Origin: Loxodes magnus
Lineage: Eukaryota; Ciliophora; Karyorelictea; Loxodida; Loxodidae
Assembly (NCBI GenBank): GCA_946699065.1
Contig: CAMPDV010000111.1
Span: 1-64,000, forward strand
Direction: 5' to 3'
DNA: 64,000 nucleotides
Part shown: positions 40,554 to 50,267 of the stretch, piece after piece
Layout of the letters: each line of letters begins with the position of its first letter
Position numbering within the stretch: the stretch's first letter is position 1
The notes under the pieces: model-generated
Databases searched by the model: none
Seen by the model: only the letters and a program-made list of their open reading frames with translations
What the model was told of the DNA's origin: nothing
Position numbers and translations under genes: made by a program

Positions 40554-42868
40554 TCACTTGATGTATTTCTACTTGTCCTTTACACTCATTGTAGTATTAG
40601 CCATTACGCAGTTCTAAAATGATAAGCCATAGTCACCATATACTTTACTCCAGTCAGTCTAAATAATTAATAATTGGGAATGTTGAAATTTGAACTTACC
40701 TATTACTAATTATTTGTTTATTCTCCATTCAATATCCTTCCTAAGTTCCATCTTCGAATGTTGTAGTCTTTTGCTTAAGGTGTTACAAATATGCTCTGAT
40801 TGCTTGATACCAACCATTGGTTGTCCCTAGATAATGATAAACTACCCACTGTGTCCGTATGACCCAATAATACACAGATACACTATCCAGTATTGATATT
40901 TCAGATTCTTATACTCTTGTCTTCAGATCCAGATAAAATATACTTGTTGTTACTTGAGAATATTACCGAAAAGACATAAGATGAGTGTCCCGATAAGACC
41001 ATTGTACAAGACAGAGTTCGAGAGTTCCATAAACGAATTGTTTTGTCACCCGATCCAGATATGATGTAAGTGGAATCACTGGATATAGCCACAGCTAATA
41101 CAGAATATGTGTGACCACTCATGGTCTTACAGGTACCTGTCTTGATATTGTAAAGTCTAAGAGTAGTATCTACACTTCCCGATACAATGAACTCTGAATC
41201 ACTGGATATAGCCACAGAAGATACATAACCAGTGTGACCACTCATGGTCTTACAGGTACCTGTCTTGACGTCCCATAGTCTCACCGTCTAATCTACACTT
41301 CCCGATACGATGAACTCTGAATCACTCGATATAGACACAGATCATACAGTACTAGTGTGACCACTCATGGTCTTACAGGTACCTGTCTTGACGTCCCATA
41401 GTCTCACCGTATTATCTGCACTTCCCGATACGATGAACTCTGAATCACTCGATATAGCCACAGCATATACATGACTAGTGTGACCACTCATGGTCTTACA
41501 GGTACCTGTGGCTATGTTGTAGAGTCTTAGAGTTTTGTCACGAGATCCAGATACTATTAAGTTAGCATCTGGAGAGATGGCAACTGAAGTGACTGAGTCT
41601 GAGTGGCCAGTGAGTATGTGAGGGTGTTCAGTTGAGATTGAGGTTAGATTAGCGTTAGAGAGGTCGCAGTTGATAAATTTAGTATTACGCATGTTGGTTG
41701 ATGAGAGATTAGAGTTGGAGAAATTGCAGGAGGTGAAGATCGTGTCCGAAAGATCAGAGTTTGTTAAGTCAGTGCTTGATAAGTTTTAATTTGTGAATTA
41801 GAAATTCATGTAGTTCAATATTGTAAATGAGTTTGAAGCTAACTGTGATATTTAAGTTTGATTTCTCGAAAGATTCAATACTTACAAACATTTTTATTAC
41901 AAATCTTAATCACTTAGTTTAAACAACTCATACAAAACTGAAACTTGCTTCATTAGACTTACTTTATTCAAAATATTCTAACCCAAATTTTAAACCGATA
42001 GATTTTAACTTTTAAATTCAATAATGATCTATCGCAATTTATCAATATTTAAATCTCCGAAATCTTAAATTTACTAATTAGCCACATATGGCTACACTTA
42101 TACCTATTATATCATTTCTGGAAGGTTTTAACTGTTTTACTAATCTACCTATCGATTTTCCTAGAAATATTGTTCAATTAACGAAATCGCCAACTACTTT
42201 GTCAGTAACTAACCATTAATCTTTTATTTTATAAACAATGTTACACCGAAAATTTACTACTATAAAAAGATCGATTAATCAACTTCGCTGACAACTAAAC
42301 TTTATTCCCTCTTTAGTTAGCCTATCTCACTCAGAATTCGATTAAATTATTCCTAATGTGCCTATTAATTTACTTAACCCTGTTAGAACTATTAACTAGC
42401 CTAAATATCCTGGTTTAACCTATCGAGACGAAATAATAACTCTTAAATTCGACTATTCTTAACTTTCTTTACATTTATTTTATTCTTTAGCAATTATTAA
42501 ACAGTCATTCTCAAAATTAACTTAAATAAATCTTGATTTTCTTCTATACTTTTTCTTTCTCCTTCGCTTTGCGCTTATTACTTTTCTTAAATCTCTTGTA
42601 ACTCCTTTACCTGCTTATTAAATTGATTTTATTAACTGAAAATGTTTAACTAATAGTCTAAATTTTGAGGCTAAATTATGAAACCTTAAAGCTAGTCAAG
42701 TCTCATATTATACATTTATTAATGAACCCTACATACCACCAGCTAAGTCAATTAATAGATTGCCTATAAACAGTTCAGACATGAACAACAACCACATGGT
42801 AACTATTTTGCTTGATGAGTACCTTAGTTATAATAATTTCCACAGTTTGGACACTAACTATTATTCAT
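40554..42868 (-). CDS. RING/coiled-coil/pentapeptide/WD40 protein, 757 aa
   Basis: CDS is complement(40554-40658, 40700-42868). The ATG at 42868 is chosen because a zinc-binding motif starts at once: Cys 6, 9, 25, 27, 30, 33 and 46 plus His 49, with an LPCGC core, give a RING-like finger (possible E3 ubiquitin ligase). Residues about 60-290 are Gln/Glu-rich and helical. Residues about 330-410 are pentapeptide repeats (xxxDL, xxxNL). Residues about 421-716 form seven WD40 repeats, enough for one propeller, each starting GHT or GHS with RLWD-type ends. In-frame TAA/TAG sit at Gln-like sites, e.g. SVDQTVRLWD. Two in-frame TGAs (41342-41344, 40901-40903) fall on blade Trp positions (STVWSVSIS; IRIWNINTG). 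The final TGA at 40554-40556 is the stop. RING plus propeller suggests a substrate-recruiting ligase; this is inference. Blades 2-4 are nearly identical, a sign of recent internal duplication. Confidence 0.88.
40659..40699 (-). other. 41-nt spliceosomal intron
   Basis: The donor GTAAGTTC follows codon 723 and the acceptor is AATTATTTAG. Length 41 is not a multiple of three, so removal is needed to keep frame. Afterwards the protein continues as TDWSKVYGDYGLSFQ and reaches a TGA stop 35 codons on. It interrupts in phase 0. It is much longer than the 15-nt introns of heterotrich ciliates, which argues mildly for a karyorelict. Confidence 0.75.
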
Positions 42869-43340: not shown

Positions 43341-44312
43341 ATTTAGCCAGATCCAAAAAAAATGATAGAATTGTTCAAAAAAGGCTTTTATACCACCTCC
43401 TAAAAAGGGGAGAGAAAGTAAGAACCCTCATCTTTAACTCAAACATCTTCTTCCTAGAAATAATCTTCTACTCAAAACCTTCAAGAATAATAGACTCAAC
43501 TAGGAACTTCCAGATCAACTTAAAAGATTGGACAAAAGCGCCAAAAGGCTACCTCGATGACACCAACTGAAGAGGAAGGACCTAGAAAGGTGCTGGAGAC
43601 GCAAGAAGTAGCAGCCGTGCGAGAGTTTGCGATGCCACAGTTCCAGGAAGAACAGGCATAAATTTTAGTCGCATTCTCTGACCTGAAGGAGGAAGTAAAG
43701 AAGCTACGATTAGAGAATAGAGCTCTAAAAAATCAAGTTACTGAGCTCAAGGAATGGAAAGAAAGCTTCTGGGAGATCTACGATCGAGAGCAAAACACTT
43801 TCTTGAGGGAAATGGGATTGCTGCAGCAGAGAACAACTGTGCTTGAAGAGAACAGCAAGTAGCAACAGTAGTAGGAATTCAAAGTTAGGACAATTCAAGA
43901 TCCAATGGATATAGAAGGAGCTATTAACTTACCGAGGAGTCCAGACAAGAAATGAATTAGGAATAAACCAAGATGTTTTGTATGGAAAAAAACTGGACAT
44001 AAATATAGACAATGTTAGAAATTGAAATTAATTAAATAATAGTACTGGAATAGAAAATAATAAGAAAAATAATAGTACTAATATTAGGATAAGATTAGAC
44101 GAGAATTCTGTAACTAATTTTATCCGTCAGGAAGTCAAATCTACAAACCGAAGTGGTATTCAATCTAAGGCGACTGAAGAAAGAGTCCTGAAGGGAGCTG
44201 GTTCCAGCCAGGCTATCAAACTGGTCCTGTGAACACGAGATTGAAAGTCCTCCAAGTTCACTAAACTCCAATTTAAACTTTTTAATTTAGTAATTTATTT
44301 AGCCAGATCCAA
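43341..44312 (+). mobile_element. CCHC-only retroelement 1 with 16-bp target duplication
   Basis: The 16-mer atttagccagatccaa is present identically at 43341-43356 and 44297-44312 and brackets a 940-bp insert. The insert carries one plus-strand ORF whose ATG is six bases inside the left duplication. Its 3' end is AT-rich without a clear poly(A). The insert lies, in opposite orientation, in the C-terminal coding part of LINE A; removing the insert and one duplication restores LINE A frame across the junction. Direct duplications of this length are typical of target-primed reverse transcription. Confidence 0.85.
43362..44296 (+). CDS. Coiled-coil/CCHC ORF1- or Gag-like protein, element 1
   Basis: No frameshift is seen from ATG 43362. 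Residues 1-65 are Ser/Thr/Gln-rich and unstructured (SSSQKQSSTQNLQEQQTQ). Residues about 85-180 are an acidic/basic heptad-like coiled coil (LKEEVKKLRLENRALKNQV), and DPMDIEG follows. Near residue 204 comes a knuckle RCFVWKKTGHKYRQC. It matches C-x2-C-x4-H-x4-C except that the second Cys is TGG (Trp), so zinc binding is probably lost. The tail has FYPSGSQIYKPK. In-frame TGAs occur at 43953-43955 and 44175-44177. The second aligns with a TGA in element 2, but coding-like sequence continues (RKSPEGSWFQPGY), so the true end is unclear: 271 aa if it stops there. Family role: RNA/DNA-binding partner of a reverse transcriptase. No RT is attached. Confidence 0.75.
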
Positions 44313-47300
44313 TCTTTGCTAATAATTCTTCTATTATTTTAAATAGCAACCACAATCCGGAATATGTTCAAATTAATCAAATTTTCCACATGTGTAATTA
44401 AGATTCTCACTTAAACAATATCTGTCTTAAAGATCCTTTAGAAAGTTGTCGCTTTATGTTCTAGGTTTTTTATACTAATTATTTATTTTCGCTATTTATT
44501 TATTTAATTTTGGATAGGCAATATAAGGAATTATTATTATTTTTCTAATTATTTTTAAATCACTTTACAGTGGGTATCCTTTTTTATCTTTAAATAGTTA
44601 CTTTATAAAATTTATGTTGAACCTTCTTTTTTAACATATTTCGAAAAAGTATTTATGCTAAAATTATATTCCTAATTATTAATATCTATTACGTAATTAT
44701 CAATAAGTTTTGTTACTTAATCTCTATATTAATATCCTACTTAACAGTTGTTCTTAAAAAGAAATCCTATTGTTTATTAGGGAAGATTATACTTTCTTAT
44801 CATATTTTGTAAAAAAATTTTAAAAACTCAAGAGCCATTATATGCTAAAATAGCATTCAGTTAAGATCTATATAACAGGATTCATTAAAAGTATTTCAAG
44901 GAGCTTAAAAGGCATTCCTTGCTATTAAACTCATACTTTAGTTAATTTTATTTAGTGTTCCAGTAACTCCATTTTAGATTACTCAAGGTACTAGTTCACC
45001 AACATATTCTGCTTTAGAGAGTGTGAACGTTCGGCACAAAGTCTTAAAATGTCAAGTTATCACATTTTTATCCTAGATAATGTAAATACTGCCTTTTTTA
45101 TAGCAGACAGATAATTAATTGATGCCTATTTACAGTGATTAATTAAATCTTTTTTTAATGAAGAATTACTCCTAAATATAAAATTTGCTATTTTTTATGT
45201 AATATCATTATTTCCAATCTTCAAGTTTAAGTTATTCCCTTTTCTTTTATGCTTTTTTAGAAACGGAATTGCTTCACATTTGGAGGCATTTATTTTAAGT
45301 TAAGTTCGGTTAAAAGCTCTGTTTGTTTCATCTATTAATGATTACATGTTCTTTTAAGATTTTGAAAGGAGTACTAAATCATTTGCCTATCCTCTGCAAG
45401 TAAAAATATTATTGAAATTATTACATTTGAATCTAATACTATTTATTATACTTTATATATGTCTGATAACAATATCATAATATAACAACGCTAATACTGG
45501 TCCGTGTGAACTTCCTTACATTACTCCATTGTTGTGTTTAAGCTTTTTAGAATAGCTTCCATCTAAGAGGAATTAAGAACTTAGATTTTAATTGAAAGAT
45601 TCGAGTGCTAATATCAATCCTAAAGGTAATTTAACACGTCTCAGCTAATCAAAAAGCATCATCTTTCTATCGAGTCAAACATTTTCTCCACGTCAATCAA
45701 AGTAGCTATTAGTTTAGTTTTACCTTTGGCTTACTTTCGAAATAAATCTATAATTGATTATATTACCAAGATCTACTTAATTGTTTGTCTGCTTTTCATA
45801 AATCCCACTTAGCTTGGGTAAATTAAGTTTCTCTAGCATATTATATTGTATAATCTTTTCGTTAGAGCTTTATAATACAATTTCAATATAGAATTGGCTA
45901 GTGAGATTGGTTGCCAACTTTTTCATTCATCTTTATTACCATTTTTCAAAATTGGAATAATAACTGAAGTATTAAGCTCGTCAGGTATTCTTCCAAGTCT
46001 AAGCATATTATTTAAAAAAGAATGAACTATCATAGTAAGGTAATTTCCTGCATACTTCAACAATTCTCCCTTAATTCCATCTGCCGCTTTACTATTTGGA
46101 ATTTTTTTTAGAATTTCTTAAATTTCTTTCAAAGTGAAAAGTTCTAAATCTTATAAACATGATAATGAATATCTAATAAGTTCTTAATTATTTTAGAATA
46201 TTTTATTTATTCTTTGGTTGCTAAAGTCAATCTATTTCTTTGTCAAGTTTAAATGCTTTTAAATACTAAATTTTCTCATGAATCAACAAAATTTTCTTAT
46301 TTCTCTTGGTTAAAAATCATTTTATTTCTTTGTCTAAGATTAAGAATTTTTTTAGCTTGTGAAAACATATCTTTATTATTTTCATTGAGAAGGAGGAATT
46401 TTTTTCTTCGTTTTATTTTTCTTAAATTATCACAGGTGCAGTTTAAAATTTTTTCATAATTTACTGGATTTGTTATGAAGGTTAATGACTTATTAATTAA
46501 TTCTTCCAAACTACGCTTGAGTTTCTTTATATACTTAATTTGCCCTTTTAGCTTCAATATACTTCTTCGTGAAGTCTTTTGTAAGTTTATTATATTTAGA
46601 GTCTGGAATAAATGGACCTAATATTTCAACTGCAGTATCTTATATATTGCGTTTAATACATGAGTATTAATCCTCTAAATTATTCCTATCAATTTGAAAA
46701 AATTAATTATAAGTTTCAAAAAAATATTCTTAATATTTTACCTGTTAATAGGGCCTTGCATCCTGTTAATTTTATTCTTTCTTTAGGTAATTATGTCCTA
46801 ATAGAGAATAGTGTTGAAGAGAACGTTTACCGTAATTGATATGTGATCAGTAAATAGTTAGTTATAATGAGACTTGAAGTTTTCAAATTGATTAATATTC
46901 AGGTGATTGCTTATTACAATATAGTCATTGCAATACATAAAACCTGTTCCTTTATGTATGCAAGTGTTGCTGTTCGCATTATTTACTATTTCAAGATCAT
47001 TCTGAATAAGAAATTCCTAGAATCTGTTTGTATTATCATAGTCATTATTAGGATTATCTCCATAATCTTATAGAGGAGCATTGAAATCTCCCATTAGAAT
47101 ATGTGGGTTATTTGGGAATTGATTAAGTAGCATATTAATATAGTCATATGCTTGTTCTTTTATGTTCTCATTTTTGCTATTATCTGGCATGTAACAGGAC
47201 TTAATAAATATATTGTCCAGTTTGGCTGTGATAAATCGATTCTAGGATACATCAATTTTATTAGTTTCTTCATTAATATTGAGTTCTTCTTTAATAACTA

Positions 47301-47540
47301 GACATACACCTCCTCCTTTTCCTGAATTTTTGTAATAAGTCCTATAACCTTATATTAATATTGGAGGGAAATCTTGTTTTTACCAAGTTTCATTAATTGA
47401 AAAAATGACCAATACTATTTTCTCTTATGAATTCTTCTACTGCATATAGTTTGCTTGCTATTCCATTTATGTTGACATGTCCAATCTTAATTTGATTGAC
47501 GATACTTCTTTTTTAGTGGTTGTCTTGATCTAAATTAATT

Positions 47541-48825: not shown

Positions 48826-49345
48826 GATAAATAATAAATAAATTTGATTATAGAGCGCGTAACACTCTCGTTGGTGCGCAGCTCTTAAAAAAAAAAATGT
48901 TTCATACTGACAAGAATGTTTGTTACTGATAAAATTATCAGATACTGATAAATCTTGTTCAATACTGGTATAATTATTCAGTACTGATAAGAATGTTCAA
49001 TACTGATATAATTTTAGAATACTCGTAATCTTTAATACTTGCTGGAGGTCCAAGGACATGGCAGTATTGTGTCTCATTGCATCACCAAAGCAGAGGACAA
49101 CATGAGTCAATTATGGGTACTTAAATTCCCCACCTCTGATGAAGCTCGCAATATTATTTCTTTTTTGTTCCAGTATTAAGAATAAACGAACCAAGTCAAG
49201 CCAACGTCGAAGGTCTAAGGACATGGCAGTATTGTGTCTCATTGCATCACCAAAGCAGAGGACGACATGAGTCAATTATGGGTACTTAACTTCCCCAACC
49301 TCTGATGAAAATGACCTTGCTGTTCACCTTCGAACAACTATGGCG
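48826..49345 (-). mobile_element. Hairpin-tailed SINE-like element, copy 2
   Basis: Read on the minus strand, the 3' end is a GAGCTGCG...CGCTC module (48846-48886) followed by a TTTATTTATTATTTATC tail. Upstream lie a short T-run, a degenerate repeat of ATACTGATAA-like units (48905-49030) and two nearly identical GC-richer segments. The module and the segment with GGGGAA and GTACCC match copy 1 at 51685-52088. The left (5') limit near 49345 is a guess. No ORF is evident. Alternatively it is the 3' end of an unrelated LINE. Confidence 0.6.
49047..49309. repeat. 97/98-bp direct repeat pair
   Basis: Copies at 49047-49143 and 49212-49309 differ by about three substitutions and one indel (roughly 96% identity). 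Each starts GGTC(C/T)AAGGACATGG and ends CTCTGATGAA. Their start-to-start distance is 165 bp. They are markedly richer in GC than the flanks. They lie inside the SINE-like copy 2, so they may be a duplicated element body. Confidence 0.9.
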
Positions 49346-49550: not shown

Positions 49551-50267
49551 TCAAGTGAACTATTTCTAAGGTGATAATTTATATATAAAGCACTTAGTAA
49601 TGTAATAAATCTAAATTAAATTAAAATATTAAGCTATCGTTTTTTTTCCATTATCCCAATTTTGCACTTATTTTCTTCAATCAGCATAGTAGTAAGTTCC
49701 TTTTCCTTAACTCAGACCTTCTACTCATTGACCTTCATATCGAGATCCATCCTTATACTTATAAACTCCATATCCATGCATCTTTCCATTTCTCTTCTCT
49801 CCAACATATCCTACCTCGTTTTTTTATACTTTCACTTTCTTATTTGTTCCAACTTCTTTTTACTCTTCTACTTCAAATTTCTCCACGTTACTCTTTATTA
49901 TCTCAAACTCTCTCATTTCTTGTTGTATTATCTCCTACTCTCTCATTTCTTGCTTTATCTTCTCTAACTTCTGCAATGACGTTTCTAAACTCATTCTTTG
50001 ATCAGCTTCTTATTTTCAACTCCCCCTTATTATCACCTCTATCACACAATTCACAGGTGTTTCCTCTCTTTCACCTCTCTTTATCCCTTCTCGATACTCT
50101 CCTTCTTCTACTTCTTCGAAAGGTATTTATCTTATCACTATCTCCCGTAAAACAACTCCATAAGAATATATGTCAGAATAGATACTATATCTCGGTTTCA
50201 TTTCAAATAACTCAGGAGCCATCCATCTTATTATTCCAACCCATTTTTTAGTGCTCAAGTATTTCAT
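49551..50267 (-). pseudogene. Kinase/coiled-coil/MORN gene fragment, 5' truncated
   Basis: The minus frame from about 50267 begins after the activation loop of a protein kinase: GIIRWMAPELFE (subdomain VIII), YSDIYSYGVVL (IX) and VIIRGSWKQEADQRMS (XI), where the invariant Trp is TGA at 50016-50018. A Glu/Lys coiled coil follows (EIIQQEMREFEIIKS). Then come MORN repeats, GKMHGYGVYKYKDGSRYEGQW and on (first 20: GKMHGYGVYKYKDGSRYEGQ), with the MORN Trp as TGA at 49725-49727. The N-lobe, the HRD catalytic loop and DFG are absent, and the 5' side is occupied by a hairpin-tailed element, so this is a cut-off gene. The first terminal TGA is at 49551-49553. TKL-type kinases joined to MORN repeats are plausible ciliate membrane-associated signalling proteins; substrate unknown. 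Confidence 0.8.

Follow-up and report, generated by a model that had tools for sequence, protein, structure and literature searches.

Can a codon that ends a gene also specify an amino acid inside it, and what kind of gene would make use of this? The question is raised by a minus-strand gene at positions 40554-42868 of a 64,000-nucleotide stretch of Loxodes magnus DNA (the window, positions 1-64000 of contig CAMPDV010000111.1, here C111). An earlier note, made from the letters of the window, had claimed that TGA is both tryptophan and stop in this gene and that TAA and TAG are glutamine, as in the karyorelict code. Based on a comparison with paralogs from the same genome, we consider it highly probable that this is an L. 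magnus gene in genetic code 27, one of at least 58 related places, with a RING-like, Gln-rich, pentapeptide and WD40 architecture and four diversified top-face codons per WD40 repeat that would form a recognition repertoire. The dual meaning of TGA is already published for Loxodes, and in this respect the gene is an instance of known biology.

Gene structure and protein architecture

Read from the ATG at 42868-42866, the minus-strand frame holds 771 codons when left unspliced, 74 of which read differently from table 11 (71 TAA/TAG and 3 TGA). Codons 1-340 contain 36 TAA and 23 TAG versus 12 CAA/CAG, and the frame after codon 340 contains 8 TAA, 4 TAG, 3 TGA and 6 TGG. TGA accounts for 3 of the 771 codons in this frame, compared with 16 to 23 in each of the five remaining frames of this DNA. 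The span 40554-42868 measures 2315 bases, which is no multiple of three; without splicing, the frame misses the terminal TGA and contains a third TGA at codon 761 (40588-40586). Removal of a 41-nt intron (GTAAGT...TTTAG, 40659-40699, minus strand) brings the terminal TGA into frame and resolves this conflict, leaving 758 codons with two internal TGAs (codons 509 and 656) and TGA as the last codon (40554-40556). The intron was placed by the frame and codon score of the tail, which is highest in the spliced frame (+4.9 versus -6.9 and -16.0), and by the splice sites of paralogs. Exon 1 (40700-42868, minus strand) comprises 723 codons with the RING-like zinc site, the Gln-rich middle, the pentapeptide repeats and the WD40 propeller, and exon 2 (40554-40658, minus strand) comprises 34 codons followed by the TGA stop.

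The propeller (40739-41611, minus strand) is the clearest part of the protein, with a Pfam WD40 match of E 3.8e-71. An AlphaFold2 (AF2) model made without an alignment reached a mean predicted local distance difference test score (pLDDT) of 83.4 and a predicted template modelling score (pTM) of 0.84, and its best structural matches were WD40 propellers, including a designed seven-bladed one. Pentapeptide repeats (41624-41809, minus strand) were identified by Pfam Pentapeptide with an E value of 1e-11, and Pentapeptide_4 also scored above its cut-off. Eight zinc ligands with RING spacing form the pattern of a RING finger, and the N-terminal site (42722-42853, minus strand) follows this spacing with C-x2-C-x15-C-x-C-x2-C-x2-C-x12-C-x2-H. 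No RING profile matched over its cut-off (Pfam zf-C3HC4_4: E 0.1, 13.2 bits, cut-off 30). No NACHT domain was detected in Pfam scans of pieces covering codons 1-420 at E values up to 1, and searches of viral contigs returned no relative of the protein or of the satellite described below.

A search of the genome assembly (705,730,643 bases, 7843 contigs) placed the family at 58 or more sites, window included (58 of 39,780 candidates scored). Near-identical pairs such as L013/L014 and L063/L064 may be alleles or haplotypes. Seven of the eight RING-like ligands are invariant in the family, and of the 41 rows extending to C25, 40 have it.

A diversified propeller face

In order to locate variation within the propeller, 304 WD40 repeats from 57 genes were compared over 41 offsets per repeat. 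Entropy was at least 2.2 at only five of them (22, 6, 4, 24 and 3), with the next offset at 1.96. The top four (22, 6, 4, 24) together make up the positions R1-2, R1, D-1 and D+1, with a spacing of 2, 16 and 2; in the window gene they correspond to codons 466, 468, 484 and 486 and their equivalents in the neighbouring blades. R1-2, R1 and D-1 are described in the cited part of PMC3419727 as interaction hotspots on the top face of WD40 proteins. The corresponding parts of PMC1805685 and PMC2873952 report diversifying selection on codons 7, 9, 25 and 27 of fungal HNWD repeats, which map to the d-a loop and the b-c turn. In our propeller model, the variable residues occupy the b-c turn and the beginning of strand a. 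The 304 repeats carry 214 distinct four-residue combinations, and the 57 genes 53 distinct gene-level sets.

Using the four offsets given by the literature and blades 2-5, we calculated the proportions of nonsynonymous (pN) and synonymous (pS) differences for 1237 of 1326 gene pairs, the others having too few sites. At the four offsets, pN was 0.50 and pS 0.214, and in the rest of blades 2-5 the values were 0.071 and 0.152, which corresponds to a pairwise ratio of nonsynonymous to synonymous change (dN/dS) of 3.27 versus 0.44. In 1236 of the 1237 pairs, pN at the four offsets exceeded pS of the rest. By a parsimony count, dN/dS was 3.53 for 26 hypervariable sites and 0.38 for the remaining propeller, from which six further variable codons (668 and 693-697) had been excluded; the pentapeptide part gave 0.24 and the N-terminal part 0.50. 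Since the 26 sites were picked with the data in view, the pairwise test at literature-given offsets is the fairer of the two.

The same pattern could arise if the variable codons were relaxed surface positions whose amino-acid excess stems from recombination and a biased codon supply, not from positive selection. Third bases are indeed 13% G/C at the variable sites versus 41% elsewhere in the repeats, so that synonymous change is under-counted there, and genes are alike at the same blade: among 32 genes, the synonymous difference was 0.077 for equivalent blades of two genes, compared with 0.221 among the blades of one gene and 0.223 for non-equivalent blades of two genes. This likeness comes from exchange or recent ancestry. 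We nevertheless regard relaxed constraint as unlikely, because pN at the variable sites is 3.3 times the pS of their neighbours, and because offset sets slid along the repeat (26 of 52 rows) reached a pN of at most 0.309, where they overlapped other variable sites, versus 0.487 for the unslid set. Furthermore, the sites match the published HNWD sites and include the three top-face hotspots.

The binding face of the family seems to have been diversified by selection, as in fungal genes of non-self recognition, and the family looks like a new HNWD-like recognition repertoire. In such a repertoire, the diversified propeller face would bind variable targets and the RING-like end would pass the signal on, perhaps by ubiquitylation.

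TGA as tryptophan and stop

The code was examined in an alignment of 57 distinct rows (the window gene and 56 distinct paralogs) in which TGA was masked. At codon 656 (40901-40903, minus strand), the invariant tryptophan of the WD motif in blade 6, the 52 rows that cover the column contain 42 TGA, 10 TGG and no other codon, and TGA accordingly stands for tryptophan there. This comparison of TGA columns with tryptophan within the family, of a kind that the earlier note had proposed for the whole genome, came out in favour of its central claim, and together with the conserved TGA of the tails it bears out that TGA is tryptophan and stop in one gene. The claim that both internal TGAs occupy WD40 tryptophan positions needs revision. 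Both TGAs are present and codon 656 is the WD tryptophan, but codon 509 (41342-41344, minus strand) is the hypervariable R1 top-face position of blade 3 (R1 as defined in the cited part of PMC3419727) and has no fixed tryptophan; its column (57 rows) holds TAT 21 times, TTA 12 times, TGA 8 times, TGG not once, and also TGT, TCA, AGA and others. An estimate of P 0.003-0.011 for two random nonsense matches both falling on tryptophan was withdrawn for the same reason, codon 509 being variable and no Trp site.

In total, exon 1 of the 57 rows contains 125 TGA codons. Trp-majority columns, 8 among the 735 that are well filled, account for 49 of them and hypervariable columns of the propeller for 52; a further 15 belong to the variable loop 693-695, and 9 lie elsewhere. 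An internal TGA is present in all 33 full-length exon-1 rows. As for TAA and TAG, of which the window gene has 71, the family bears out their reading as glutamine: 15 columns consist of more than 90% Gln codons, and 13 of these mix TAA/TAG with CAA/CAG (508 versus 209 in total).

The composition of the gene also points to L. magnus. Its coding sequence has a GC content of 33.6% and the 100 bases after the stop have 17%; for the macronuclear (MAC) assembly of L. magnus, which amounts to 706 Mbp including 231 Mbp of tandem repeats, the cited part of PMC11441545 gives a GC content of 33.5% for coding sequence and 18.6% for 3' untranslated regions.

Intron and stop codon in the paralog tails

The intron and the final TGA were followed in 49 tails, from the window gene and 48 of the 57 fetched paralogs; the other nine stop short of codon 720. 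The donor begins with GTAA in 45 of the 49 tails and the acceptor is TAG in 47, with the AG lost in L022 and L032. Intron length ranges from 26 to 45 nt and is divisible by three in 14 of the 49. Despite this varying length, 44 of the 49 spliced tails show TGA at exon-2 codon 35 (row L062, whose register differs by 7 bases, was counted from its own exon 2). The remaining tails reach a TGA later, 1 to 6 codons further on in L022, L040, L035 and L037 and 27 codons further on in L020. The stop search covered TGA alone, so that a single-copy TAA or TAG stop would escape notice. As far as sequence comparison goes, the paralog tails settle the intron and the final TGA. The earlier note was therefore right that a real stop TGA follows a natural C-terminus; it placed this TGA in frame within the unspliced span, which holds only after removal of the intron.

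Two variants of the tail were observed in addition. In four near-identical copies on contig C331 (L016 to L019), the donor reads ATAAAT and a stretch of 36 nt is retained in frame, apparently an intron turned into coding sequence. L040 carries TGG in place of the usual stop TGA, with the next in-frame TGA three codons later; a second TGA at this place is found in 9 of the 48 other tails.

The nearest sense TGA lies 32 codons before the stop (L042, L052), and no TGA occurs within exon-2 codons 4-34 of the 49 tails. Exon-2 codons 1-34 contain 78 TAG versus 6 TAA, counts that come mostly from a few shared columns, which is the reverse of the bias in exon 1 (2131 TAA versus 1046 TAG). The legend of Fig. 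3C in PMC11441545 describes the same trend genome-wide in Loxodes, where TAA and TGA are depleted ahead of stops and TAG is not. This agreement favours table 27 over table 28, and these sequences support a reading in NCBI table 27, where TAA and TAG are glutamine and TGA is tryptophan within the gene but the stop signal at its end.

Table 28, the Condylostoma type in which TAA, TAG and TGA can each act as sense or as stop codon, has the same sense meanings as table 27. In that code, TAG is ambiguous and avoided ahead of the stop, and the 49 tails show no such avoidance: in 39 of them, the fifth codon ahead of the stop is TAG, and conserved residues follow it. Given that the composition also fits L. 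magnus, we consider table 28 highly improbable. Least probable of all is a table 6 ciliate with TGA as stop only and the two internal TGAs as nonsense mutations of a pseudogene; two neighbouring window sequences (a kinase-MORN fragment and a LINE-like element, see below) look decayed by eye and a conserved glycine is occupied by TGA in 2 of the 57 rows, but the paralog columns reject it unless every full-length member is dead, as all 33 full-length rows have an internal TGA, TGA is the majority codon of a Trp-only column, and dN/dS is well below one in the rest of the propeller and in the pentapeptide part.

Release factor and discrimination between sense and stop

The earlier note had suggested a search for a mutated eRF1. 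A search with PF03463 revealed two near-identical eRF1 genes (L107, L108) with the altered motifs RAQNIKS and FLCENTF, in place of the TASNIKS and YLCDNKF of other eukaryotes. Neither copy has an internal TGA over the stretch that was read, and both finish with ...DPDEDFL TGA. A further match (L106) is presumably pelota.

A tRNA-Trp with a 4-bp anticodon stem is reported for Loxodes in the cited part of PMC13092985, and the relevant part of PMC4967479 presents a model in which UGA is translated by default and termination takes place near transcript ends; a distinction of sense from stop by distance to the mRNA end is likewise the model of PMC11441545. In L. magnus, UGA would thus likely be read by default by the tRNA-Trp with the 4-bp anticodon stem, and near the mRNA end eRF1 would likely win over this tRNA, leading to termination. 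The family, with its TGA-free exon-2 codons 4-34, appears compatible with this distance model.

Supply of TGA at the hypervariable codons

Tryptophan is encoded differently at the variable sites and in the remainder of the repeats. The five hypervariable offsets hold 51 TGA and 7 TGG, and the other offsets 43 TGA and 190 TGG; 42 of these 43 TGAs stand at the WD tryptophan, nearly all in column 656. With column 656 set aside, the ratio of TGA to TGG is 51:7 versus 2:177. The same bias towards A- or T-ending codons is seen for tyrosine, with 315 TAT and 5 TAC at offsets 3, 4, 6, 22 and 24 versus 42 and 107 elsewhere in the repeats. The conserved frame of the propeller, unlike the hypervariable sites, is rich in C-ending codons.

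Since third bases are A/T-rich at the hypervariable codons, the simplest explanation is a single-step origin of new tryptophan codons from codons ending in A or T, which leads to TGA and not to TGG. The commonest parsimony neighbours of TGA were TAA, TAT, TGG and TTA, although reconstruction is uncertain at such fast sites. With UGA as tryptophan, this residue would be one step away from TTA, TCA, AGA, GGA and TAA, and the ambiguous code would widen what selection can sample. On the whole, we lean slightly towards the view that a large RING-pentapeptide-WD40 family, often located near contig ends and satellite DNA, independently reached the positions used in fungal non-self recognition, with the ambiguous code widening the choice of residues.

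Points against the proposed reading

Several observations weigh against the reading of the gene and family given above. Nine of the 125 TGAs stand outside both the Trp and the hypervariable columns, and two of these nine occupy the otherwise invariant glycine of codon 482; judging from these columns, some copies may be decaying. The R1 offset shows 31 TGA and 0 TGG, so that tryptophan at this offset follows from the code and not from the column. The rows share ancestry and their counts are not independent, and parsimony gives just three TGA/TGG changes at codon 656. Some partial matches hold no TGA, yet they end before this codon.

On the side of the gene model, the 41-nt intron of the window gene exceeds most L. 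magnus introns, which according to the cited part of PMC11441545 are mostly short (mean 19.3 bp, 93% at most 25), with a maximum of 40 nt used in intron calling, a limit by which an intron of 41 nt may have escaped. The RING-like site fits the ligand spacing of RING fingers, and this ligand pattern is what the assignment is drawn from. Regarding selection, the choice of A/T-ending codons at the hypervariable sites can lower pS, yet pN also exceeds the pS of the rest.

Genomic setting of the family

Members of the family are frequently located near contig ends. Among the 12 family places on contigs of 500 kb or more, 10 lie within 45 kb of an end, versus 1.1 expected, a limit that was set knowing the 40.6 kb of the window gene itself. 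Across all listed places, 46 of 58 lie within this distance and 37 of the 46 are transcribed towards the end. Assemblies tend to stop in satellite DNA at contig ends; therefore, the location ties the family to satellite arrays and does no more than hint at subtelomeres.

In the window, a tandem satellite array (1-37902; 37.9 kb) extends from the start of contig C111 and sits between this start and the gene, downstream of the latter. It consists of about 370 copies of a 104-bp unit and is C-rich on the plus strand (skew about -0.85). Of 41 contig ends (40 fetched and that of the window), 17 have a 14-base motif of the satellite. In 14 of the 17, the C-rich strand is at starts or the G-rich strand at ends, and polarity is reversed at the C68 start, the C464 end and the C29 end (one copy). 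Telomeres were not detected in Loxodes according to the cited part of PMC11441545. A role of the satellite as telomere is a possible lead, bearing in mind that most contigs examined were chosen for carrying the gene.

With regard to the neighbours of the gene, Pfam scans (E up to 0.01, TGA as Trp) of six frames at 43-64 kb and one plus-strand frame at 37.9-43 kb yielded no match besides an EEP endonuclease, a MORN repeat and the tail of a kinase, and no RNA was found in the window by ARAGORN or Rfam (gathering threshold). The kinase C-lobe and MORN fragment (49677-50258, minus strand) looks truncated, and its upstream kinase part was not found by eye. Its TGA at 50018-50016 faces a kinase position that is Trp in MLT and Leu in B-Raf, that at 49727-49725 faces a MORN Trp, and that at 49679-49677 faces a MORN Gly; as evidence for TGA as Trp, this piece is weak. 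A decayed long interspersed nuclear element (LINE)-like sequence at about 44300-47500 (minus strand) contains the EEP endonuclease (Pfam E 4.2e-10) and, by eye, motifs resembling reverse transcriptase in shifted frames. Also by eye, we noted a possible first open reading frame (ORF1) at about 43500-44030 (plus strand), whose end resembles a zinc knuckle, and two direct copies of roughly 90 bases each at about 49040-49310.

Comparison with known systems

The value of the locus lies in the fact that one genome offers many similar genes: a given column may be TGA in one gene and TGG in the next, and TGA is sense in one column but stop in another, so that the rule separating both meanings becomes measurable with existing RNA-seq. 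If true, a WD40 repertoire of this hypervariable kind in a ciliate would carry a principle known from fungal recognition, selection on the propeller rim, over to eukaryotes far removed from fungi, with another type of domain for signalling. It would also connect an unusual genetic code with the amino acids available where selection acts. We found no publication on hypervariable WD40/RING/pentapeptide families in Loxodes, ciliates or protists, which is weak evidence of novelty as most subscription journals were outside the coverage.

Compared to the karyorelict code of NCBI table 27 (Loxodes, Parduczia), the gene shows the same use of TAA and TAG as Gln and of TGA as Trp or stop, with TAA scarce and TAG not scarce before the stop. 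There is no difference in principle; here, the pattern is seen within one paralog family, and Trp-TGA is frequent at diversifying codons. The Condylostoma code (table 28) shares the context-dependent UGA and differs in that TAG near the stop is plainly sense in the Loxodes family.

COP1 is a RING-type E3 ligase with a WD40 substrate domain. With RING-type E3 ligases of this kind, the Loxodes protein shares the N-terminal zinc-ligand spacing and the C-terminal WD40 propeller; it differs by the pentapeptide repeats in between, its ligase activity is putative, and the Pfam RING profile reached only the E value of 0.1 given above. In the pattern of variation, the family resembles the fungal HNWD/NWD genes (het-d, het-e and het-r of Podospora anserina): both are multigene families with four diversified codons per repeat, identical in spacing and located in the d-a loop and the b-c turn, and both have tryptophan among the residues at the selected sites. 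The Loxodes gene differs from them in having a RING-like site and pentapeptide repeats instead of NACHT, and in lacking homogenisation among the blades of one gene (32 genes).

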